NCBI RefSeq assembly: GCF_029910095.1
Contig: NZ_CP094526.1
Location: forward strand, 6,324,001 to 6,388,000
Source: Bradyrhizobium sp. ISRA464
Lineage (GTDB): Bacteria; Pseudomonadota; Alphaproteobacteria; Rhizobiales; Xanthobacteraceae
Length of the DNA: 64,000 nucleotides
Direction: 5' to 3'
The position numbers and the translations under genes are program-made. Under the pieces are notes generated by a model. That model was not told where the DNA came from, did not search any database, and worked only from the letters and a program-made list of their open reading frames with translations. Shown one piece after another: positions 4,352 to 56,169 of this stretch. How positions within the stretch are numbered: position 1 is the stretch's first letter; each line of letters begins with the position of its first letter.

Positions 4352-4381
4352 CTTGAATCGCACGTAACGTTAAATTGTACG
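4352..4381 (+). promoter_or_regulatory. MerR-architecture promoter (site 1 of 5)
   Basis: TTGAAT at 4353-4358 is followed, after exactly 19 bp, by TACGTT. A 19-bp spacer between -35 and -10 is the hallmark of promoters activated by MerR-family regulators. The spacer contains GCACGTAACGTTA and closely matches the spacer in front of nolA. The nearest downstream start is the low-confidence ORF at 4429. Confidence 0.55.
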
Positions 4382-4428
4382 TTCTTGAGGTGGCCAGTCT
4401 TTGACTTGCATCGAGGTAAGGATTCCGA

Positions 4429-5119: not shown

Positions 5120-5265
5120 CATCGTTTGACTGGCATTCACTGAGACAGTCTGACGATCGTCCGCATCTGAGATGCCTATCAACACAATAGCATCACCATC
5201 AACAGACTTTCCAAAGAATTTCAGGAAGGGCCTGATCGCGCATGGACCGATCCAGGGGAACGGAA

Positions 5266-6801
5266 ATGAATCTCGCAACACTGATTGAGCGTAATGCGGC
5301 GTTCGCTCCCAACAGGCCGGCGATCCATTTCGAGGGCGAGACTTTAAGTTATGCGGCCTTCAATCAACGGATCGGGCAGATCGCTGGCGCCTTGAAAAGC
5401 CGGCTCGGTGTGGATAAAGGCGACCGGGTCGCGATTCTCAGCTTCAACCGGCCTGACTATCTGGCGCTGCTTTATGCCTGTGCACGGCTCGGAGCCATGG
5501 TCGTGCCGTTGAATTGGCGCCTTGCTGTCACCGAGCAGCTCTTCATCCTGTCCGACGCCGGGGCCAAGGTGCTGCTTCTCGAGCAGGCGTTCGACGGTCT
5601 GCTGCCCGCACTTGCACAGAAATCGCCTGATACCGCCGTTGTCGGGTTGGATTTTGCGCCTCCCGGCGGCAGCAAGTGGGACAGCCTGCTGGACCGTGCC
5701 CCCGGCGATGGTCGCAATCCGGGTGCGGACCTCTCCTGCCCGCTTCTCATTGTTTACACCTCCGGCACCACCGGTCGGCCGAAAGGCGCCGTGCTACGGC
5801 AGGACGCGTTGCTGTGGAATGGGGTCATGAGTCAGCACATGCATGACCTCAGTTCGTCGGATCATGTCTTGACAGTATTGCCGCTGTTTCACGTTGGCGG
5901 CCTCAATATCCAGACAACGCCAGCCTTGCACAATGGCGCGACCATCACTCTCCACGCGCGGTTTACGCCGGAGGCGACGCTCGCTGCATTTGAGCGCGAT
6001 CGGCCGACGCTTGCGGCATTGGTGCCGGCAGCGATTCAGGCCCTCACAAACCATCCATCATGGCCGACGACGGACTTGTCCTCGCTGAAAGCAATTTGCA
6101 CCGGCTCAACGATGGTGCCGCGGCATCTTACCGACCGTTTTGCCGCGCGGGGGGTGCCGGTTCTGGAGGTTTACGGTTCGACGGAGACCTGCCCCATTGC
6201 TGTCTATACGAAGCTTGGCGGCGATCCTGCGCACGAGGGTTCGAGCGGCTTGCCCGGTCTATGCTGTGAAGCAGCGATCATCAATGATGCCGGCACCACG
6301 GTGCCCCCGGATAGCCCAGGCGAGATCGTGGTGCGCGGCCCCAACGTCTTCTGCGGATATTGGGGTGACAAACAAGCAACCGAGGCGGCCCTACATGGCG
6401 GGTGGTATCGCACCGGCGACATCGGACGACGCGATGGTGATGGGTATTTTTGGATCCAAGATCGCAAGAAGAATCTGATCATTTCCGGTGGGGAGAATAT
6501 CTCTCCTGCCGAAGTTGAGCGTGTGCTCAGGGAGCATGGCGACGTCGCGGACTGCGCCGTTGTCGGTCGTCCGGACCCACGCTGGGAGGAAGTTCCTGTC
6601 GCTTATGTGATCAAACGAGCTGGAGCACAAATTGAGGCTGAAGCGCTGATCGCCCATCTGCGATCGCAACTCGCCGGCTTTAAGGTGCCGCGCGAGATCA
6701 TTTTCACAGAAGAATTGCCGCGAACGGCGCTGGGTAAGGTCCAGCACTTCATGCTGAAGCAACTCGGTACGCGATCACCACAGCAAGGCGATAACAATTG
6801 A
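5266..6801 (+). CDS. Acyl-CoA synthetase / adenylate-forming ligase (class I)
   Basis: A 511-residue ANL-superfamily enzyme that activates a carboxylic acid as acyl-AMP and passes it to CoA or another acceptor. Motifs in order: P-loop YTSGTTGRPKGA (about residue 165), YGSTE (about 306), GWYRTGDIG (about 387), DRKKNLIISGGENISPAEVE (hinge region) and the C-terminal catalytic lysine in PRTALGKVQ. ATG 5266 is preferred because AGGGGA lies just upstream; ATG 5242 adds eight residues. It is followed 175 bp later by an ATP-grasp ligase on the same strand. Two ligases in a row suggest an amide- or ester-forming pathway. The substrate acid is unknown. Confidence 0.92.
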   Translation: MNLATLIERNAAFAPNRPAIHFEGETLSYAAFNQRIGQIAGALKSRLGVDKGDRVAILSFNRPDYLALLYACARLGAMVVPLNWRLAVTEQLFILSDAGAKVLLLEQAFDGLLPALAQKSPDTAVVGLDFAPPGGSKWDSLLDRAPGDGRNPGADLSCPLLIVYTSGTTGRPKGAVLRQDALLWNGVMSQHMHDLSSSDHVLTVLPLFHVGGLNIQTTPALHNGATITLHARFTPEATLAAFERDRPTLAALVPAAIQALTNHPSWPTTDLSSLKAICTGSTMVPRHLTDRFAARGVPVLEVYGSTETCPIAVYTKLGGDPAHEGSSGLPGLCCEAAIINDAGTTVPPDSPGEIVVRGPNVFCGYWGDKQATEAALHGGWYRTGDIGRRDGDGYFWIQDRKKNLIISGGENISPAEVERVLREHGDVADCAVVGRPDPRWEEVPVAYVIKRAGAQIEAEALIAHLRSQLAGFKVPREIIFTEELPRTALGKVQHFMLKQLGTRSPQQGDNN

Positions 6802-34208: not shown

Positions 34209-35153
34209 ATGCGGTTCAAGGGCCTTGATCTAAATCTTCTCGTTGCGCTCGATGCTCTGATGACCGAGCGCAATCTCACTGCAGCGGCACGCAAGATCAA
34301 TCTCAGTCAACCGGCCATGAGCGCCGCGATCGCACGGCTGCGGACATACTTCCGCGACGAACTATTTACGATGAGGGGTCGCGAACTTGTCCCAACATCG
34401 CGCGCAGAAGGGCTCGCTGCTCCAATTCGGGAGACCTTGCTGCACATCCAGCTCTCCATCATTTCGCGGGACGCGTTCGACCCGGCTCAATCGAGCCGGC
34501 GCTTCCGGATTATCCTCTCCGATTTCATGACGATCGTATTCTTCCGAAAGATCATAGACCGCGTCGCTCGGGAGGCTCCCGCTGTCCGCTTCGAGTTGCT
34601 TCCGTTCTCAGATGAACCCGGCGAGCTTCTCAGACGTGGCGAAGTCGATTTCCTTGTCGTGCCCGAATTGTTCATGTCGAGCGCGCACCCCAAGGCCAGT
34701 CTGTTTGAGGAAACACTGGTATGCGTCGGCTGCCGTACAAATAAGCAGCTCGCACGCAAGTTCACGGCCGAGAGATACATGTCGATGGGACATGTCGCGG
34801 CCAAGTTCGGCAGAGCCCTGAGGCCCAATATCGAGGAGTGGTATTTGCTTGAGCACGGCCTCAAGAGACGAATCGAGGTCGTCGTGCAGGGCTTCAGCCT
34901 CATCCCCCCGGTCGTATTGGACACCACTCGGATCGGAACAATGCCTTTAAGATTGGCTCGGCACTTTGAAAAACTGGTGCCCCTACGGATCGTCGAACCA
35001 CCGCTGGCCCTTCCCGCCTTCACCGAAGCCATCCAATGGCCTGCCACCCACAATACCGATCCGGCCAGCATCTGGATGCGGCGGATATTGCTGCAGGAAG
35101 CGTCAAGCATGACCTTGCCACCCGAGACGCCACCACGTCGCAGACGCTGCTAG
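34209..35153 (+). CDS. nodD1: LysR-type nodulation activator NodD1
   Basis: A 314-residue LysR regulator, the standard NodD length. The N-terminus [48 protein letters not shown] is the NodD HTH; the C-terminal flavonoid-response domain follows. Divergent from the nod operon with the nod box in between, the position of nodD1. It would bind the nod box and activate transcription with a plant flavonoid. It is a close paralogue of the second nodD at 35912. Confidence 0.96.
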
Positions 35154-35549: not shown

Positions 35550-35579
35550 CTTGAACCTTACACTGCGTCAGGTTGTAGG
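35550..35579 (+). promoter_or_regulatory. MerR-architecture promoter (site 2 of 5)
   Basis: TTGAAC, 19 bp, TAGGCT. The spacer holds AACCT and AGGTT arms 11 bp apart, a good dyad of MerR type. The last ten bases (CAGGTTGTAG) match the nolA promoter exactly. It precedes the nolA remnant. Confidence 0.65.
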
Positions 35580-35584
35580 CTGGC

Positions 35585-35840
35585 AATCGTGAGCAACGCT
35601 CCGTCACACGGATGTCGATAGCGCACTTGCGACATTGTCGGCGTGAACACCAGCGTTCTACCTAGAATGGTCTTCACGCTGAGGGATGTTGTTGCCGGAG
35701 TGCGGCAACGATCAGGTCCGAAACCGCCGAGTTACACGCTCCTCGCCCGCTCCACCTCGGGTCGATCAGCCTGTTGGCCCAAACACGTGAGCTGTTTCTC
35801 ACGATCGCGCCGCCAGATCGAGACCTCCTGGACGGTTAGC
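35585..35840 (+). pseudogene. Internally deleted nolA copy
   Basis: After the MerR-type promoter, 35615-35650 resembles the nolA segment for RWRIGELADATGV (GTCGAT-GCGCA---GCGA pattern, then CDIVGVNTSV in place of LADATGV). Near 35730-35838 a second block resembles the NolA C-terminus (LLAR..., LFLTIAPPDRDLLDG then stop, versus VLARL..., QYLDLALAALEDQPY then stop). The middle is missing. The similarity is partial and by eye. Its place between nodD1 and nodD2 mirrors nolA behind nodD2. Confidence 0.45.
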
Positions 35841-35911
35841 GCGATCGTTCCAGACCTAACCGTTGCGGCTCAAGGAGTGCAACGCAAACGCTTTCAGCGG
35901 GGTGAAAAGAT

Positions 35912-36943
35912 ATGCGTTTCAAGGGCCTTGACCTGAATCTTCTCGTCGCCCTCGATTCCCTGATGACCGAGCGCAACCTGACCGCGGCAGCGCGCCGAAT
36001 CAATCTCAGTCAGCCGGCCATGAGTGCTGCCGTCGCCCGGCTGCGCGCCTATTTCCGCGATGACTTGTTTGCGATGAGCGGCCGAACACTTGTCCCAACA
36101 CCGCGGGCGGAAGCGCTCGCTGGTCCCGTTCGCGAGGCCTTGCTGCACATCCAGCTTTCTGTGATTTCGCGGGAGGCGTTCAATCCAGCCCAATCGGAGC
36201 GCCGGTTCAGGATCAGCCTTTCCGATTTCGTCACGCTGGTGTTTTTTCGTCGGATCGTGGAACGTGTTGCGCAGGAAGCGCCCACGGTCAGCTTCGAACT
36301 GCTGCCGGTCGCCGACGACCACGATCAGCTGCTCCGGCGTGGGGAAGTCGACTTTCTGATTTTTCCGGATTCATTCATGTCAAACGGGCATCCTAAAGCA
36401 GCGCTATTCGAGGAACGGCTCGTCTGCGTCGGCTGTCACACGAACAAGCGGCTATCGCGTCGGCTTACACTCGAAAGATATATGTCTATCGGGCAGGTCG
36501 CCGTTGGATGCGATCTGACGCGAAAGCCCTCGATCGAAGAATATTTTTTGCTTAGACATGGGCTCAAGCGCCGCGTCGACCTCGTCGTGCAAAGCTTCAG
36601 CATGATCCCACCGATGCTGATAGGTACTGACCGAATCGGAATGATGCCTCTAAGGTTGGTTAAGCACTTCGAGAAAACGACGCCACTGCGCATTGTGACA
36701 CTTCCGTTCTCGCTTCCCGCATTCACTGAAGCCGTCCAGTGGCCTGCTCTTCACAATAGTGATCCAGCAAGCATATGGATGCGAGACATACTGTTACAGG
36801 AAGCGTCATGCATGTCCCCTCCTCGTGACGTCGCGCGAGCATCTAAACGCTCGAAGTCCAGTCGGCACCTCGCTTCAGCCATTCTTCCCACCAATCAGCG
36901 CCCGTCCGGATACTTCGTGAGGGCGGACTCCCATTCATCGTGA
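35912..36943 (+). CDS. nodD2: LysR-type regulator NodD2
   Basis: A 343-residue LysR protein nearly identical in pattern to NodD1 over its first 310 residues ([48 protein letters not shown]). The C-terminus carries about 30 extra residues ([20 protein letters not shown]...) not present in NodD1, perhaps from loss of the original stop. In Bradyrhizobium nodD2 is a repressor of nod genes, itself under NolA control. No nod box lies in front of it. The order nodD1-nodD2-nolA matches the genus. Confidence 0.94.
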
Positions 36944-37445
36944 GCGCAATTCCATAAAGCGCGCCACACCCGTGAATCGGATGCCGGATTTGGCCACCTC
37001 AACCGCCTGACATTTGGACTCTGCCGATTGCTATTGTCGTCTCGCGCGCGACAGCTTTCAGACTGACCACTTGCACCACCCTATTGTGCAGCCCGTCGCA
37101 AATTGCTATCGAGCCGCCCGCCCGAGCAACGGCGCTCAGCCGGCAATAGAGTCTGCTCAGGAAACAGAGCCCAACATCCGACGGCAGCAATATAGTGCTA
37201 TTCTCGCTTTGCTCGGCCACTCCAATGTCGTCAGCTGATAGATTGTGCGAAGAACGGCTCGCTCAATCGCTCGCGAGACATCAAGACAAAGCGATGCACG
37301 ATTGTGTTGCTCGACGGCATCACTTGAGGGCATACCGCATCATCGCCGCTGCACGCCGCCAGCCCGTCTCCTTTTGGCCCTACCGCAGCCAAACGTCTTG
37401 GCCATGGGCGCGCGCCTCGCACAATGACAAATAGGGAGCCCGACG
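36944..37445. other. Intergenic stretch behind nodD2
   Basis: About 500 bp with no gene that I can support. It ends at the GGGAG ribosome-binding site of the TTG-started small gene. Confidence 0.4.
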
Positions 37446-37655
37446 TTGCAGCAGCACAATGGTATCTTCGATCCCGAGGATCCATCAGTCCTGGGAACGA
37501 TGTTTGACAAAGCCGTCACTGCGCTGCCCGCCTCGATGCGCACTCCTGAAAACCGAACGGCAATCGCAAAGCTCATTCTGGAGCGAGCAGCGACGAGCGA
37601 AGCTGGCTTGGCGTCCCTGATCAGCTTGATGGACGCTATTTCCCCTGCCGCTTGA
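37446..37655 (+). CDS. Small protein (69 aa), paralogue of the gene at 47168
   Basis: TTG 37446 has GGGAG seven bases upstream and an in-frame stop just before, so this start is likely. The protein (FDPEDPSVLGTMFDKAVTALP, RTPENRTAIAKLILERAA) closely matches the middle of the 157-residue protein encoded at 47168 (YPEDLQLLGRIFDLAIAALP, QTPTNRSTVAKFILSHAV). Short proteins of this type recur in bradyrhizobial symbiosis islands. It is helical and acidic-basic mixed, with no signal. Function unknown. It precedes the nolA promoter. Confidence 0.65.
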   Translation: MQQHNGIFDPEDPSVLGTMFDKAVTALPASMRTPENRTAIAKLILERAATSEAGLASLISLMDAISPAA

Positions 37656-37728
37656 TCGAGCGGCACCCTAAGATCGTCCCCTTGCTTGCGCCGGAATGGA
37701 AGAAGATTCAGCTAGGTCATTGAAATAG

Positions 37729-37758
37729 CTTGAATCTCACGTGACGTCAGGTTGTAGG
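37729..37758 (+). promoter_or_regulatory. MerR-architecture promoter of nolA (site 3 of 5)
   Basis: TTGAAT (37730-37735), 19 bp, TAGGCT (37755-37760). The spacer CTCACGTGACGTCAGGTTG places the operator between -35 and -10, as expected for autoregulation by the MerR-type NolA. The nolA ATG is 17 bp past the -10. Confidence 0.7.
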
Positions 37759-37776
37759 CTTTGAAATCGAAAGAAC

Positions 37777-38490
37777 ATGACCAAAGCTACACAACGAAGG
37801 CGTCGATGGCGCATTGGCGAACTTGCAGATGCTACCGGAGTAACGGTACGCACGCTGCATCACTATGAGCATACCGGACTCCTTGCCGCCTCGGGGCGCA
37901 CGGATGGCGGTCATCGCATGTATGATCGCGAAAGCATGCAACGTGTCCATCAGATTCGAGCGCTGCGCGAGCTTGGCTTCTCCCTTCAGGAGATCCGCAG
38001 AGCAATGGAGGGACGCACCTCGCTTACTGACTTGTTGCGCAAGCATCTGGAGCGTATCGAGCTGCAAGTTGCTCGTGCGACTCTGTTGCGAGACCGCTTA
38101 CGCAATATGACAACCGATGGCGAAGTTCGCGTCAGTGTAGATGAGCTGCCCGCCACGCTGGATGCGATGGCGCGGGTGGAGAAACGCACCGAGCCACGAC
38201 CATGCACGTGCACCCTGGCTGCGGATCGCGAGGAGCGGTGGCGACGAATCCGCGATGAACTGCGTGACTGTGTGGATCGCGACGAGCATCCATGCAGCGA
38301 GCGGACAAGATCGGTGGCTCTTGAGGCACGCCAGTTGATCGGCGAAATCGCAGGAGCCGATTCGACCGTCCCAAAAATCCTGAAAGTGCTCGCGCGATTG
38401 AGTGCGCCTCAGAGCCTTGCTGGTTGGGATCCCAATCTCATGCAGTATCTCGATCTCGCACTCGCCGCCCTGGAGGATCAGCCGTACTGA
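37777..38490 (+). CDS. nolA: MerR-type nodulation regulator NolA
   Basis: A 237-residue regulator, the length of Bradyrhizobium NolA1. The N-terminus RRWRIGELADATGVTVRTLHHYEHTGLL is the MerR winged-helix, followed by GHRMYDRESMQRVHQIRALRELGFSLQEIRRAM. The C-terminal effector domain has several cysteines (CTCTL, DCVDRDEHPCSER). In Bradyrhizobium NolA controls genotype-specific nodulation and nodD2, and shorter forms arise from internal starts; internal ATGs are present here too. Its own promoter has MerR architecture. Confidence 0.95.
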   Translation: MTKATQRRRRWRIGELADATGVTVRTLHHYEHTGLLAASGRTDGGHRMYDRESMQRVHQIRALRELGFSLQEIRRAMEGRTSLTDLLRKHLERIELQVARATLLRDRLRNMTTDGEVRVSVDELPATLDAMARVEKRTEPRPCTCTLAADREERWRRIRDELRDCVDRDEHPCSERTRSVALEARQLIGEIAGADSTVPKILKVLARLSAPQSLAGWDPNLMQYLDLALAALEDQPY

Positions 38491-38569
38491 GCGGCGCCGC
38501 CTGATCATACGAGACTGCCGACCTGCCTCCTGATGCTGATGTCACTGACCTCCGGTTTCCGACCTTCGC

Positions 38570-38584
38570 GGGGGGGGGGGGGGG
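38570..38584 (+). repeat. G15 homopolymer
   Basis: Fifteen consecutive G residues, 80 bp behind the nolA stop and about 90 bp before MerR-type site 4. Tracts of this length slip during replication and can switch nearby transcription. Confidence 0.9.
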
Positions 38585-38671
38585 TGAGCGAGCTATCGCA
38601 TATCTCTTTCTACTGTAGCTTCATCAGCCGACGAATTTTTGACTTATTGATCGCGCGCTCCCGATAAGGGG

Positions 38672-38701
38672 CTTGAAACGCACCTAGCGTCAAATTGTAC
38701 G
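38672..38701 (+). promoter_or_regulatory. MerR-architecture promoter (site 4 of 5)
   Basis: TTGAAA, 19 bp, TACGGT. The spacer CGCACCTAGCGTCAAATTG is close to sites 1 and 5. It stands about 120 bp before the orphan LIV-type binding protein gene and points toward it. Confidence 0.6.
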
Positions 38702-38823
38702 GTCTAACCCGGGTCCCACGGTCTTCGACGAACGATCGGGGATAACCCTGGCCCATCGCACCGACCAGCCCATGATCGGAGCGACCAGGCTGACAGCACA
38801 AGGCAAACATCGGGAGCTCCACA

Positions 38824-39936
38824 ATGTCGAGTTGGCATATCCGTTGCGCTGCAAGCGCAGCCATCCTGTGTTGTGCCCTGGCTTCCGCAGCGTCTGCCGC
38901 CGATGTCTCCATTGCGGTAGCTGGTCCAATGAGTGGAAGCAGCGCTGCATTCGGTAAGCAGATGCGCGATGGTGCCACTGCGGCCGTCGATGCGCTAAAC
39001 GCATCGGGCCTGCTTGCCGACACCAGGATCGTATTGAGTGTCGTCGATGATGCGTGCGACCCCAAACAGGCCGTCGCGGTTGCAAACAAGCTGACCATCG
39101 ATCGGGTCCGGCTGGTCGTCGGCCACTTCTGCTCGTCCTCGTCGATTCCAGCCTCCGATGTTTACGCCGAGGCGGGAATTATTCAGATTTCGCCTGGATC
39201 CACCCATCCGCGGCTGACAGAGCGCGGACTTAAGACCGTCTTTCGCATTTGCGGCCGCGACGACCACCAAGGCATCGTGGCAGCCGAATACATCCTGCGG
39301 CACTATCCGAACAAGGCGATCGCTGTCCTTGACGACAAGAGTACAGCTGGCAAGGGCATTGCCGATATTGTCGAGGCAAGGCTTCGCGACGGCAGCGCAA
39401 GTGTCGTGCGGCAAAGCTATGTGGCCGGCGAAAAGGACTACATGGCACTCGTCTCGAGACTGAAAAAGGACGGGATCCAGATTGCCTATATCGGCGGCTA
39501 TCACACTGAAATCGGGCTGATTGTGCGACAGGCGGCACAAGCTGGTACCGGCCTGACGGTGGTGGGGAACGATCCACTGATGACCTCTGAATTCTGGGCC
39601 ATCACGGGCAGTGCTGGGAACGGTACCTTGTTCACCTTCATGCCAGATCCCGCCAAGAACGCGAGCGCAGCCGACGTCGTGGCAAGGCTCAAAGCTTCGA
39701 ATTCATCCGTCGAAGGCTACACGCTTTACGCCTACGCAGCCGTCCAAGCATGGGCCGAAGCGGTGAAACGGTCCGGATCCTTCAACGCGACACGGGTGGC
39801 CGCTGCGCTTCGTTCGCAGCCGATCGATACGGTGATCGGCCCGGTCCGATTCGATCCCAATGGAGACAACGCGTCTCCAGGCTTCGTCGTCTATCGCTGG
39901 CACGATAACGCCATCGAAGCCGCCGAGCAGAACTGA
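38824..39936 (+). CDS. LIV-type ABC transporter substrate-binding protein (orphan)
   Basis: A 370-residue periplasmic protein of the branched-chain amino-acid binding (LivJ/LivK) type, with a signal peptide (RCAASAAILCCALASAASA, cleavage about residue 25). AGPMSGSSAAFGKQMRDGA and VDDACDPKQAVAVANKL are typical of the family's first lobe; GEKDYMALVSRLKKDGIQIAYIGGYHTEIG of the second. No permease or ATPase genes are near, so it must work with a transporter elsewhere. It lies behind MerR-type promoter site 4, which suggests control by NolA or a relative. Ligand unknown. Confidence 0.9.
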   Translation: MSSWHIRCAASAAILCCALASAASAADVSIAVAGPMSGSSAAFGKQMRDGATAAVDALNASGLLADTRIVLSVVDDACDPKQAVAVANKLTIDRVRLVVGHFCSSSSIPASDVYAEAGIIQISPGSTHPRLTERGLKTVFRICGRDDHQGIVAAEYILRHYPNKAIAVLDDKSTAGKGIADIVEARLRDGSASVVRQSYVAGEKDYMALVSRLKKDGIQIAYIGGYHTEIGLIVRQAAQAGTGLTVVGNDPLMTSEFWAITGSAGNGTLFTFMPDPAKNASAADVVARLKASNSSVEGYTLYAYAAVQAWAEAVKRSGSFNATRVAAALRSQPIDTVIGPVRFDPNGDNASPGFVVYRWHDNAIEAAEQN

Positions 39937-40398: not shown

Positions 40399-41550
40399 AT
40401 GTCGGACGATAAACTGCGAAGCGTGCTTTCCGCCCTCAGCCCGGTGGCGCGCGGATTGGAAGTTCTGCCAACTGCCCGGGCGGCTCCAGACACAAGCTAC
40501 GTGAAGCTGGATATGAACGAGAATCCCTTCCCCATGCCCGCCATTGTTATGCAAGGCGCGCTAGCGGCCCTTGAACGGCAGCATCTCTATCCGGAGCATG
40601 ACAACCTCCGCTTGAGGGAGGCAGCCGCCAACGCCTACGGCGTCCCGACGAATCATGTGATCGCTGGCAACGGATCATCTGAACTTCTCGGCTTGATCTA
40701 CAAGGCTTTCCTTGTCTCTGGCGACCGCATCGCAATGGTCGCCCCAGGCTTCACGTTCAACCGCAAGCTCGCCATGTTGCAAGCTGCCCAATTGATAGAG
40801 GTCGAATGCGCAGCTCCTCAGCGTTTGCCGATCGAACAGCTTCTGTCCGGGCCTGCAACAGCTGCCAAGTTTCTTCTGTTGGCGAACCCGAATAATCCGA
40901 CCGGACTCTTCATTCCGATCGCCGATATCGAACGCCTGCTGGCCCAATCCGATCGCCTGATCGTTCTGGACGAGGCTTATGTCGACTTCGCTCCTGACAA
41001 CGGCCTGCGTCTCCTTAGCCGTTATCCAAATCTTCTCATCCTGCGGACGCTCTCGAAAAGCTATGCCGCCGCGGGCATTCGCGTTGGCTTTGGTATCGGT
41101 CATCCCGAGCTCATTGGCAGACTCCGTAACATCCAGAACGTCTTCAATATGAATGTGATCGCTCACGCGGTTGGCATCAGCATTCTTGCACATCGCAGCG
41201 CTTATGAAGCCAATCATCGGCATATCAAGCAAGAACGGGAGAGAGTTAGCGCCGAATTGTCGCAGCTTGGCTTCTGCGTGGCGCCGTCCCACGCAAACTT
41301 CGTGCTTGCCCGCGTGCCGGGACCACAAGACGGCAGATGGTGGCAGGCAGCCCTGGAGAAGCAGAAGATCCTTGTCGCCTTCTTTGCCGACAAGGGTCTG
41401 GAAAACAGCATTCGCATTAGTATCGGGACAACAAGCCAGATCGATGCGTTTCTCGCCGCGGTCCACGCGATTTCCGCACACTTGAAGACGGCCAGCAACC
41501 AGGCGCGAACGTTATGCAGCGGGTGCAGATGTCCAAACGGCAAACAGTGA
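40399..41550 (+). CDS. Histidinol-phosphate aminotransferase-like PLP enzyme
   Basis: A 383-residue fold-type-I aminotransferase of the HisC group. Motifs: LDMNENPFPMP near the N-terminus, AGNGSSELLGLIYKAFL, LLANPNNPTGLFIP, IVLDEAYVDFAP (PLP-binding D and Y) and the lysine in LRTLSKSYAAAGIRVG. GGGAG precedes ATG 40399. A HisC on a symbiosis island is likely an extra copy that may act on another amino acid or a precursor of a specialised product rather than histidinol phosphate. The luciferase-like gene follows on the same strand. The C-terminal 25 residues extend past the usual end. Confidence 0.9.
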   Translation: MSDDKLRSVLSALSPVARGLEVLPTARAAPDTSYVKLDMNENPFPMPAIVMQGALAALERQHLYPEHDNLRLREAAANAYGVPTNHVIAGNGSSELLGLIYKAFLVSGDRIAMVAPGFTFNRKLAMLQAAQLIEVECAAPQRLPIEQLLSGPATAAKFLLLANPNNPTGLFIPIADIERLLAQSDRLIVLDEAYVDFAPDNGLRLLSRYPNLLILRTLSKSYAAAGIRVGFGIGHPELIGRLRNIQNVFNMNVIAHAVGISILAHRSAYEANHRHIKQERERVSAELSQLGFCVAPSHANFVLARVPGPQDGRWWQAALEKQKILVAFFADKGLENSIRISIGTTSQIDAFLAAVHAISAHLKTASNQARTLCSGCRCPNGKQ

Positions 41551-41742: not shown

Positions 41743-42771
41743 ATGAACAACGGCATTCCTTCAAAGTTGACCTGCGGCATCTTCGACCATCTGGATGACG
41801 ACGGCCGCGACGCAGCTCAGCAATACGCGGACCGTCTCACATTGGCGGAGAAGTGCGACTCTCTTGGTTTCTACGCGTATCACCTGGCAGAGCACCACTG
41901 CACCCCACACGGCAGAGGTCCGTCGCCGAATCTGTTCCTGTCAAGTGTCGCGCAGCGCACGCGGCGCCTTCGTCTTGGTCCTCTGGTCATGCTGCTCAAT
42001 CTTTATCATCCATTACGCGCGTTTGAAGAAGTCTGTATGTTGGACCAATTGAGCGGCGGCCGGCTCGAGCTCGGCATCGGACGAGGCTCGGTGCCGATCG
42101 AGTTGGGCTATTTCGGTATTGGCGCCGACGTCGCGCCGAGCCGCTATGACGAAGCCAGCGAAATCCTTGCGAGCGCGATGAAACAGCATTCACTGTCCTA
42201 TCAGGGGCAGCATTTTGAACTCAGCGGCATCCCTGTGACGCTGAGGCCTCATCAGCGTCCCAATCCGCCGACATGGATCGCCAGCAATCGAGCCGAGTCG
42301 GCGGCTTGGGCGGCCGCGAACGGCGCCAATCTCGCATGTGTAGGTCCCTCCTCAATCGTGCGAACAGTCACGGACGCCTTCCGAGCTCATCGAACGCACA
42401 GCGCTGAGGCGAGCGATCGGGAGCCATTCCTTGGGTTGCTCCGCATGGTTGTGATTGCGCGCGACCACCAAGACGCCTACTCCTTGGCGGCAACGGCTTA
42501 CCAACGATGGCTGGAGAGCTTTAAATTTCTTTATGAGCTCAATGCCATTCCCACACCACCTAACCTGCCGCTGACCTTCGATGCGGCACTTGAGAGTGAG
42601 TTGTGCGTCGTCGGAACGCCATCTTCCGTGCGACAGGACCTTCTTAACCAGATGGAGGAGGCAGGCGCCAACTACCTGCTTTGTCAGCTTGCTTTTGGGA
42701 ATCTGCCGCTGGATGTCTCGCTGTACACCGCAAGCACGATCCAATCCGAAATCATCGCTCGGGCATGCTGA
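41743..42771 (+). CDS. Luciferase-like flavin monooxygenase (LLM class)
   Basis: A 342-residue alpha/beta-barrel protein of the bacterial luciferase-like monooxygenase family. ATG 41743 has GGAG upstream. SLGFYAYHLAEHHCTPHGRGPSPNLFLSSVAQRT and LSGGRLELGIGRGSVPIELGYFG are typical, as are LRPHQRPNPPTWIAS and the late ELCVVGTPSSVRQDL. Such enzymes use reduced FMN made by a separate reductase; a flavin reductase is encoded at 1738, far away. Substrate unknown. Co-oriented with the HisC-like gene. Confidence 0.9.
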   Translation: MNNGIPSKLTCGIFDHLDDDGRDAAQQYADRLTLAEKCDSLGFYAYHLAEHHCTPHGRGPSPNLFLSSVAQRTRRLRLGPLVMLLNLYHPLRAFEEVCMLDQLSGGRLELGIGRGSVPIELGYFGIGADVAPSRYDEASEILASAMKQHSLSYQGQHFELSGIPVTLRPHQRPNPPTWIASNRAESAAWAAANGANLACVGPSSIVRTVTDAFRAHRTHSAEASDREPFLGLLRMVVIARDHQDAYSLAATAYQRWLESFKFLYELNAIPTPPNLPLTFDAALESELCVVGTPSSVRQDLLNQMEEAGANYLLCQLAFGNLPLDVSLYTASTIQSEIIARAC

Positions 42772-48863: not shown

Positions 48864-49347
48864 GCGGGGATAGAGAGATGTTAGCGACCGCTTTCCGGAC
48901 TAAAGGTGGGCGTCTGAGGATCTCAGTCTGGCAATGCCCAGCGCCGAATAAGCATTTATGATCGAGGCACGAGTCCACTGGACGGTCGAGATCGTTCTTT
49001 GCCAGATCAAAACGAGCGACGACCGAGCGATCGATAAGATCCGGGTGGCGCGCCAATGTCCGCGACTCGGCGAGTATCATGACGTCGTAAGTGCGGGCAC
49101 ACGACCTGCGTCCCGCCCGACGAATGATACTCGGTGGGAGCTCGCACCTGCCGCTTTCGACAATGGCCTGCGGCAGGACGAAGCGGCTGCCGTCGTCATC
49201 ACGCATCATCACGACGACTCTGCAAGCTGACGCAGCGTACGATTGCAGCCATTTCTTCCGAAAACATGTTGTGCTGAAGTTACAGCAATTCGTGACGATC
49301 TTGCTAAGACGCGCAGCGCCGGGCACATCGAAAGGAACGACACCAGA
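48864..49347. other. Gene-poor stretch
   Basis: No gene supported; upstream region of the outer-membrane barrel gene, with AAAGGA just before its ATG. Confidence 0.4.
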
Positions 49348-54210: not shown

Positions 54211-54240
54211 CTTGAATCGTACGTAGCGTCAAGTTGTATG
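54211..54240 (+). promoter_or_regulatory. MerR-architecture promoter (site 5 of 5)
   Basis: TTGAAT, 19 bp, TATGAT, the best -10 of the five. The spacer CGTACGTAGCGTCAAGTTG is close to sites 1 and 4. A possible start (ATG 54320 behind AAGGAAGG) follows, but that ORF looks degenerate; hemN is 565 bp away. Confidence 0.55.
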
Positions 54241-54761
54241 ATTTCCAATTCGGCGCACCCTTCCGTAAACAGTTTCCCGTTCGTGATCGCGCGGGCCTTG
54301 CGACAACGATCAAGGAAGGCATGATGCTCTCATCGTCAGCGTCTCACAACATTGCCGCTGTCGTCATGCACCGCAGAACGGACCTCACGCGTCCGCTCTC
54401 CTCAAGCTTTCAAATATTTTTTCCGCGAAACCCTCCAGCGGCGAAGCTGGGTGTCCTCCGAGCACGATCGCGTTCAGGCACTCATTACCCCGGGAACTCG
54501 ACGTGGAGTTCAAGGCCTCTGTCCGAGAGGTGTCTTAATCGAGCGATCCGGCTTATTCGATCGGCGTCATTCACGGCGTGAACCATTTGGCAGGAGCGCC
54601 GTATCACACCAGGGTCGAGTTGGTGGTTAGCAGGTAGGCACGGCATGTAGGCCGATCATCGATAAATTTAGTCTCACGCCACCTCACCGGCGATCCGCCG
54701 CTAAGCCGCGCGCTTCGCAAGGAGATCACGGAACGCAGGCTTTGCAACGAGGGCGGACCGA

Positions 54762-54804: not shown

Positions 54805-56169
54805 ATGGCAACAGAACTCTGGGACAGCAAAGCATTGCAGACTTCAATCCTGGATAAATACTGCGATGCTCGGCTGCCCTGGTACACGATTTATCCAACT
54901 GTGTCGGAGTTCTCAGCGGCAGTCAGCGTCGGCGCCTGTGAGAGATGGTTGAGGCGTCTTCCTGGTGACGATCCTGTATCGCTCTATCTCCACGTTCCGT
55001 TCTGCCGATCGATTTGCTGGTACTGCGGCTTTCCGACACAGCTTACGTGTCGGGATAAGCCGATCCTCGATTTTGTGGCAATGCTGCGAGAAGAGATCCG
55101 TTTGGTGGCAGATCACGTGCCGCAGGCGTTACCGGTGAGTGACGTGCACTTCGGTGGCGGAACACCGACCAGCATCGGGCCAACGGCGTTCCTGGAGCTA
55201 TTGGAACTTCTACGCCGCTGCTTCATGTTCAGCAAAATGGCAACGATCGCAATCGAGATCGATCCGCGCGCGTTGACGGCTGAGATGGCCGAAACCCTGG
55301 GAGTCGCCGGGGTCAATCGCGCAAGCATCGGCGTGCAAAGCTTCGATCCCATCGTTCAAAAGGCGGTCAACCGGGTCCAGAGCGAGGCTCAGACGGCGAC
55401 CGCGGTCGAACGTCTGCGTCGACACGGTATACGCCGCATCAATTTCGACCTGATCTTCGGTCTCCCAAATCAGACCGTACCGTCCTGCGTCCAGTCTGCG
55501 AAAACGGCGATTGCCATGCGCCCCGATCGGCTCGCGGTTTTCGGCTACGCGCACGTTCCGTCCTATATGAAGCGACAGCGCTTGATTGACGAGGAAGCAC
55601 TCCCGGATAACGCCGCTCGCGCCGAGCAAGCTGCGGCCGTGGCCGATACGCTGGTTGCCGCCGGCTACCGTCAAATCGGGCTCGACCATTTTGCCTTGCC
55701 GGACGACGAACTTACGCTGGCGCAGAAAGCCGGCCGGCTGCGACGCAACTCCCTGGGCTACTCGGCTGACACCTGCAAGACCGTGATCGGCTTCGGCCCG
55801 TCGGCCATCGGCCGTCTTGGTGATGGCTACGTCCAGAACGAAATCGCGACGGGTTCCTACAACCAGCACATCAGGGCCGGCCGTCTGGCAATATCGAGGG
55901 GCTACACTCTCACCGACGAAGACCGCCTCCGCGCCGCAATCATCGAGCGGCTGATGTGCGACTTGCAGGTCGATGTGTCGGCCATCTGCGCCGCTCACGG
56001 GTTCGACCCGGCCGCTTTTCTTGATTCGGCTGAACGCCTGGAGATGCTCGCCGAGGACGGCCTCGTGGACATCGATAAGGGTTTCATCCGCGTAAAGCAG
56101 GAGCACCGCTTTGTACTTCGCGCGGTTGCTTCCGCGTTCGACGCCTATCTCGGCCGCTCACCCTATTAA
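54805..56169 (+). CDS. hemN: Oxygen-independent coproporphyrinogen III dehydrogenase HemN
   Basis: A 454-residue radical-SAM enzyme that makes protoporphyrinogen IX without oxygen. The cluster motif CRSICWYC (C67, C71, C74) follows YLHVPF; FGGGTPTSIG is the SAM-binding GGGTP motif; ASIGVQSFDP, NFDLIFGLPNQT and IGLDHFALPDDEL are family landmarks. Length is that of true HemN. A FixK-type box just upstream places it under low-oxygen control, useful for haem supply in nodules. Confidence 0.95.
   Translation: MATELWDSKALQTSILDKYCDARLPWYTIYPTVSEFSAAVSVGACERWLRRLPGDDPVSLYLHVPFCRSICWYCGFPTQLTCRDKPILDFVAMLREEIRLVADHVPQALPVSDVHFGGGTPTSIGPTAFLELLELLRRCFMFSKMATIAIEIDPRALTAEMAETLGVAGVNRASIGVQSFDPIVQKAVNRVQSEAQTATAVERLRRHGIRRINFDLIFGLPNQTVPSCVQSAKTAIAMRPDRLAVFGYAHVPSYMKRQRLIDEEALPDNAARAEQAAAVADTLVAAGYRQIGLDHFALPDDELTLAQKAGRLRRNSLGYSADTCKTVIGFGPSAIGRLGDGYVQNEIATGSYNQHIRAGRLAISRGYTLTDEDRLRAAIIERLMCDLQVDVSAICAAHGFDPAAFLDSAERLEMLAEDGLVDIDKGFIRVKQEHRFVLRAVASAFDAYLGRSPY

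Follow-up and report, generated by a model that had tools for sequence, protein, structure and literature searches.

Five short elements in a 64,000-nucleotide stretch of the Bradyrhizobium sp. ISRA464 genome (contig NZ_CP094526.1, positions 6,324,001 to 6,388,000; hereafter the window) are, with a probability of about 0.88, MerR-type operators of the regulator NolA that define an island-wide regulon. Of the two explanations that a sequence-only reading of the window had offered, a NolA regulon is favoured by the co-occurrence of the sites with NolA (137/137 genomes with NolA against 4/128 without), by a site at 66/66 nolA loci, by a genome of another family that holds both (G622; G and L numbers are our handles for genomes and loci) and by the position of the NolA-dependent gene X268_RS37710 behind a site; a promoter cassette copied around the island is not borne out, since conservation pooled over 168 non-redundant site contexts is confined to about -5 to +36 of the site. 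All five elements stand on the + strand where that reading had placed them (4352, 35550, 37729, 38672 and 54211, each coordinate being that of the C directly before TTGAA) and consist of TTGAA(T/C/A), exactly 19 bp and then TAnGnT, the spacer ending each time in [CT]A[AG][AG]TTG. The -10 class it had given fits four of the five and has to be widened for site 38672, whose TACGGT has G, also allowed, as its fifth base.

Five proved too low a count. The 8,462,457-bp genome holds 17 sites at no more than three mismatches (11 forward, 6 reverse), all located between 6,226,436 and 6,820,450; this stretch of 594 kb, 7% of the genome, is read as the symbiosis island from the nodulation genes within it. 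The reversed pattern, searched across the whole genome at the same threshold, gave 0 matches, and base composition predicts 0.011-0.018 sites per genome by chance. Because the search pattern was derived from the five window sites, the other 12 form the independent part of this set. A 38-column matrix built from the site contexts scored the window sites at 48.9-58.1, with the nolA site the best (58.1); the next best score in the window was 24.9 (49248, - strand), nothing else exceeded 8, and neither did anything in the reversed window. The training contexts include the window sites and loci later scored, so that these scores describe conservation and are no independent tests. The weak sixth site at 49248, in which -35 and -10 are altered, lies at the 5' end of an outer-membrane-protein-like open reading frame (ORF) on the opposite strand, named by eye from its sequence, and may be a decayed operator.

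NolA is the sole match to MerR_1 (PF13411) in the window, as the sequence-only reading had claimed for the MerR family, and also in the 6.226-6.820 Mb stretch, the genome having ten such matches. The search of bradyrhizobial genomes that it had proposed was made over 265 Bradyrhizobium genomes (NolA at expect value, E, <= 1e-20; sites at <= 2 mismatches; site counts complete for each genome, positions listed for part) and found sites in 141: both NolA and sites occurred in 137 genomes, NolA only in 0, sites only in 4 and neither in 124, NolA-positive genomes having a median of 12 sites and a maximum of 28. As NolA and the sites might merely share an island, NodD was used as a control (E <= 1e-60, 148 genomes). 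Among NodD-positive genomes, sites were present in 137/137 with NolA versus 2/11 without it. Seven of these 11 have distant NodD-like matches only (E 1e-61 to 1e-88); the four with a close NodD comprise two without a site, even at three mismatches (G085, G222), and two with one (G037, G133). In an order-wide sample of 397 genomes, 15 of them Bradyrhizobium and 382 others, sites were found in four genomes, namely three Bradyrhizobium and G622, and the same four alone had NolA matches with E below 1e-60, the closest match elsewhere having 9.5e-19. The NolA homologue of G622 (51% identity, E 1e-63) starts 36 bases after its site, which differs from the pattern by one mismatch and has the core AACCTCACGtgaCGTGAGGTT, a perfect palindrome.

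Conservation at individual loci follows the same line. One scan of named genomes yielded 66 nolA loci, all from Bradyrhizobium, and a site precedes nolA in every one of them, ending 14-20 bases before the NolA match in 64 loci and 56 bases before it in two, where the match begins at residue 13. Downstream of nolA a second site is present in 65/66 loci, and the nodD2 site is kept in 49 of the 51 loci where a nodD stands between that site and nolA. Fifteen loci lack that nodD; in eleven of these, site scores range from 7.7 to 46.0 and five are <= 32.1, compared with a median of 51.0 where nodD is present (left out were L159 and L170, where another site scored best, and L168 and L169, where no site was found). 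Since scores are lower where nodD is absent, the nodD2 site looks, from these sequences, as if it decays once its target is lost.

The consensus of the 168 contexts reads AA, then G-CTTGAA(T/C)C(G/T)(C/T)ACG(T/C)N(G/A)CGTCARRTTGTA(G/C)GNT, and outside the conserved span just one column exceeds 0.25 bit (-21, 0.27 bit). Most core columns are fixed by the search pattern, and their high conservation is therefore partly by construction; this does not apply to the spacing, to the sixth base of -10, to the two A at -5/-4 or to the flanks. The sixth -10 base, outside the pattern, is T in 140/168 contexts, and A occurs at -5 in 133 and at -4 in 142, both likewise outside the pattern. When gaps of 1-8 were allowed between the half-sites in 27 genomes, all 150 listed of 250 matches, which come from 16 of the 27, had the 19-bp geometry, in keeping with the exact spacing first described. 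MerR-regulated promoters have a 19-20 bp spacer between -35 and -10 (PMC9909328; published work is cited here by PMC accession, from the parts of each text at hand). Among 28 centres tried, the dyad is strongest at position 15, being centred on base 14 counted from the first T of -35; 43 of 20000 shuffles reached the observed strength at that centre and 206 of 5000 column shuffles did so at any centre. A 19-bp spacer, a palindrome across it and a regulator gene linked to the site, three marks of a MerR promoter, are found together. A coding remnant on the opposite strand was considered for the core, as the reverse reading YNLT..IQ recurs in ORF lists; it was rejected by eye, the varying bases often falling in codon positions 1/2 while third positions stay.

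NolA itself matches MerR_1, MerR and MerR-DNA-bind in Pfam with 73.9, 54.8 and 31.1 bits, all above cut-off. The PDB sequence nearest to its N-terminal part is the TipA N-terminal domain (2vz4, E 6.6e-15), and a structural model (mean predicted local distance difference test 73.5, predicted template modelling score 0.44) matches MtaN, CadR, TipAL and CueR structures over about 105-130 columns; for the C-terminal half the model supports no firm statement. No TipAS domain was detected in NolA by Pfam at E <= 0.001, and the G622 homologue has a weak TipAS match (22.5 bits, below the cut-off of 23.8). In an alignment of 22 NolA sequences the invariant residues lie mostly in the N-terminal half. 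In 20 of the 137 NolA-positive genomes just about 124-177 N-terminal residues align, with 2-23 sites kept (G197, G110, G195, G198, G077, G054, G082, G021, G075, G199, G251, G213, G114, G046, G048, G049, G148, G149, G150, G264), and in eight of them a stop codon falls within the aligned stretch; repeated loss of the sensor half in these lineages is possible.

Published expression data can be set beside the sites. In USDA110, NolA activates itself and nodD2, as stated in PMC9927474 from earlier work, and the dependence of both genes on NolA is also cited in PMC5596368; the two fall jointly in strain SFJ4-24 (nolA -2.4, nodD2 -2.3; PMC4070659). When nolA was deleted in B. guangxiense CCBAU53363, 11 genes changed, the named ones being nopP, virK, X268_RS37710 (a luciferase-like, LLM, oxidoreductase) and X268_RS35990 (a transposase) (PMC9927474). 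On p53363, of which 115 of 979 kb were scanned (L106, L107, L177, L178), X268_RS37710 starts 37 bases after X268_RS37715 (a histidinol-phosphate transaminase), and a site with three mismatches ends 319 bases before this pair, so X268_RS37710 is likely the second gene of a site-headed unit. The same hisC-LLM pair lies behind site 38672 in the window.

Several observations weigh against a NolA regulon. One of the four named NolA-dependent genes lies behind a site: on p53363 nothing scored above 8 at 296000-322000 and nothing above 3 close to virK, and X268_RS35990, which is not in the gene table, is placed beside virK by its number, so that virK and this neighbourhood are both without a site. 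Purified NolA gave no shift of the nopP promoter in an electrophoretic mobility shift assay (PMC9927474), and another column of PMC4070659 gives nolA as 1.7 and, in the part at hand, does not list nodD2. Within Bradyrhizobium the dyad is imperfect, pairs 9-21 and 10-20 being mostly mismatched, and for several sites the first clear gene is 0.5-1.1 kb or more away. The co-occurrence is partly confounded, as NolA and the sites both ride one island. G037 and G133 have NodD, one perfect site and two more at three mismatches each, and lack NolA; G220, also NolA-negative, has one weak site; and G079 keeps six good sites yet has no match to NolA (E <= 1e-20) or NodD. The downstream site is missing from L112, and L113 and L171 have no nodD2 site. 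G079 (L248-L251) is rated 100% complete and has conserved target genes behind three of its six sites; it leaves room for a recent loss of NolA, an assembly gap or another reader of the sites.

The explanation that best survives beside an island-wide regulon, and which we regard as unlikely, is that NolA works through the nolA, nodD2 and 38672 sites alone, the rest being relics or weak sites without effect. These three are the sites kept at nearly every nolA locus (66/66, 49/51 and 65/66 for nolA, nodD2 and the downstream site), some of the others are far from any gene, and just 11 genes changed in the B. guangxiense mutant (PMC9927474). Unused sites, however, seem to decay, as the lower scores at nodD-less loci suggest, whereas the four-mismatch-free distant sites score high and have the same gene partners across species; and G046, a close relative of the B. 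guangxiense plasmid, has four sites at <= 3 mismatches, so that few changed genes are to be expected there. It is very improbable that something other than NolA reads the sites, be it an alternative sigma factor, a different MerR protein or a response regulator of the island. The CTTG of the -35 element resembles RpoH-type promoters and is tied to RpoH in PMC4842269, and G079 has sites without NolA; but a sigma factor would not be expected to require 19 bp or a conserved spacer such as that seen in columns 8, 11, 12, 17-21 and 24-26 (93-100%, these columns being fixed by the search pattern), the island has no second PF13411 match for another MerR protein, and the sites accompany NolA into another family. 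A short mobile promoter cassette, whose copies would be alike through duplication and not through the binding of one protein, might account for the near-identical, island-confined 28-bp cores and for blastn matches of 30-46 bp between the nolA region and many own-genome sites (30 bp at 97% in L010, 42 bp at 88% in L011), but is scarcely credible given that pooled conservation stops near -5 and +36, with split sets adding modest upstream columns (0.3-0.5 bit), that many species keep the site at the same genes (nodD2, nolA, the binding protein, trpD and the response regulator) and that another family has the site directly upstream of a NolA homologue.

For the preferred reading, a NolA regulon, the following mechanism can be proposed. 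A NolA dimer would bind the interrupted dyad AAYC-nn-ACG-TNR-CGT-nn-RRTT across the 19-bp spacer, and active NolA, like other MerR proteins, would twist the promoter, which is over-long, into a form usable by sigma-70 RNA polymerase. The sites, their spacing and dyad, their conservation and their linkage to NolA are computed observations; direct binding by NolA, and a signal to which it responds, are what we infer from them, and activation by distortion is suggested by analogy with the MerR family (PMC9909328). Spread over about 600 kb of island, at least 17 promoters would carry the operator, and members of the regulon would include nolA, nodD2 and genes of transport, amino-acid, haem/cytochrome, secretion and lipid functions. 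Somewhat better than even, in our judgement, are the chances that NolA is a master switch of the island, beyond its role as a brake acting through nodD2, linking a nodulation signal to haem/cytochrome, tryptophan, lipid, secretion and transport genes, and that lineages keeping the DNA-binding half only may have a signal-free, constitutive NolA. The sequence of the operator can be put to the test and points to predicted targets in 137 species-level genomes.

Predicted operators and neighbouring genes in the window (positions counted from its first nucleotide)
Feature	Position	Strand	Details
MerR-type promoter-operator (predicted)	4353..4383	+	-35 TTGAAT 4353-4358, 19-bp spacer, -10 TACGTT 4378-4383
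Small conserved ORF, 95 aa	4832-5119	+	between site 4352 and acyl-CoA-ligase-like gene
AMP-binding acyl-CoA-ligase-like gene	5242-6801		downstream of site 4352
nodD	34209-35153		ORF and Pfam
MerR-type promoter-operator (predicted), upstream of nodD2	35551..35581	+	-35 TTGAAC, 19-bp spacer, -10 TAGGCT
nodD2, LysR-type	35912..36943	+	Pfam HTH_1, LysR_substrate
MerR-type promoter-operator (predicted) of nolA	37730..37760	+	-35 TTGAAT, 19-bp spacer, -10 TAGGCT
nolA, MerR-family regulator, 237 aa, proposed cognate protein	37777..38490	+	Pfam
MerR-type promoter-operator (predicted)	38673..38703	+	-35 TTGAAA, 19-bp spacer, -10 TACGGT
Periplasmic binding protein (Peripla_BP_6)	38824..39936	+	first gene behind site 38672
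Histidinol-phosphate-aminotransferase-like (hisC-like) gene	40399..41550	+	57% identity, 344 aa, to X268_RS37715 of p53363
Luciferase-like (LLM) flavin oxidoreductase	41755..42759	+	60% identity, 335 aa, to X268_RS37710
MerR-type promoter-operator (predicted)	54212..54242	+	-35 TTGAAT, 19-bp spacer, -10 TATGAT
hemN-like radical-SAM gene	54805-56169		behind site 54211

Distances in the window are given here as counted between the end of the 28-base site and the start of the gene. Site 37729 occupies the position of nolA's own promoter, as had been proposed, 21 bases before the ATG; site 38672 stands 125 bases before the binding protein, also as proposed, with the hisC-like and LLM genes further downstream. 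Site 35550, thought to precede a nolA remnant, instead precedes nodD2 by 335 bases, and in a tblastn search with NolA (E <= 0.01) that took in the window together with 28 island loci of this genome (17 site loci of three kb each and 11 longer stretches), nolA itself was the only match. The name nodD2 was given because of the position of the gene and its likeness to the other NodD of the window, to which its product is 71% identical over residues 1-307. Site 54211 is 567 bases from the hemN-like gene; site 4352 is 453 bases from the small ORF and 863 from the acyl-CoA-ligase-like gene, and this small ORF is found behind sites elsewhere too, with identities of 93% (L021), 74% (L041) and 58% (L214 and L244). 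Between nolA and site 38672 there is a run of 15 G (38570-38584).

Elsewhere in the genome the sites precede, some by more than 1 kb, a biotin carboxylase-carboxyltransferase pair, a response regulator-secretin pair, an aminotransferase/Cys-Met-type enzyme with a fatty acid desaturase and a glutamine amidotransferase downstream, a trpD-trpC-like pair, a glycosyltransferase, a MauG-like cytochrome c peroxidase, a small cytochrome c, a nuclease-carbonic anhydrase pair and other genes without a family. Gene partners recur behind sites across genomes, and about half of the tabulated loci are without a match to an own-genome target. The 9,105,828-bp genome G027, for example, has 10 sites at <= 3 mismatches, with nodD2, nolA, the binding protein, trpD, the response regulator, the small ORF and the nuclease-carbonic anhydrase pair as partners, and two of the ten are without a match to own-genome targets. 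At six loci (L001, L002, L006, L008, L009, L015) an AT-rich, ATATTC-like box can be made out by eye some 27 bases upstream of the site. It could be a UP-like element or belong to a second factor; as a fixed second element it was discarded, being at that place in just 10/168 contexts.

Operators shared by scattered transcription units across an island are familiar in rhizobia from the nod box of NodD and the tts box of TtsI, which are LysR and response-regulator operators and differ from the NolA sites in sequence and geometry. CueR, a MerR-type metal sensor, controls few promoters, and MerR regulons are, to our knowledge, usually small; the island-wide regulon of one MerR protein would, if true, be unusually large. 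The CueR-type copA promoter of E. coli has, like the sites described here, a 19-bp spacer (TTGACC-19 bp-TAACCT) with an interrupted dyad across it, centred, by hand count, 14 bases from the first T of -35 as here; its dyad is nearly perfect (CCTTCC..GGAAGG), compared with AAYC..ACG..CGT..RRTT in the present sites. The CueR operator sequence was found in 5356/5426 E. coli genomes and lies 40 bases before copA in the one inspected.

Work on NolA goes back to 1991 and treats it as a regulator of host specificity and of feedback in nodulation, to judge from reference-list titles in PMC5596368 and PMC4842269; the main text of the latter has nolA in reference titles only and nodD2 nowhere. A phrase search of the literature for a NolA operator turned up none given in the texts at hand, and searches with pieces of the site sequence returned unrelated papers only, among the matches listed. 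In PMC5596368 (2017) the nolA promoter is described as TTGAAT-N16-TTGTAGGCT and assigned to sigma-70; its bases are the same as those of the site before nolA here, which the part at hand does not term a MerR operator. The same study examined 250 bp before nodD2, and that part reports no NolA site there, whereas in ISRA464 335 bases separate the start of nodD2 from its site, one of 17 in the genome; the position of the nodD2 site outside the 250 bp examined offers an answer to why none was found. Among solved MerR proteins, Streptomyces TipAL is the closest in sequence to the N-terminal part of NolA, the G622 homologue has its weak TipAS match, and the review PMC9909328 lists NolA beside TipA; unlike TipAL, NolA has no detected TipAS domain, and its predicted targets here are nodulation and metabolic genes.

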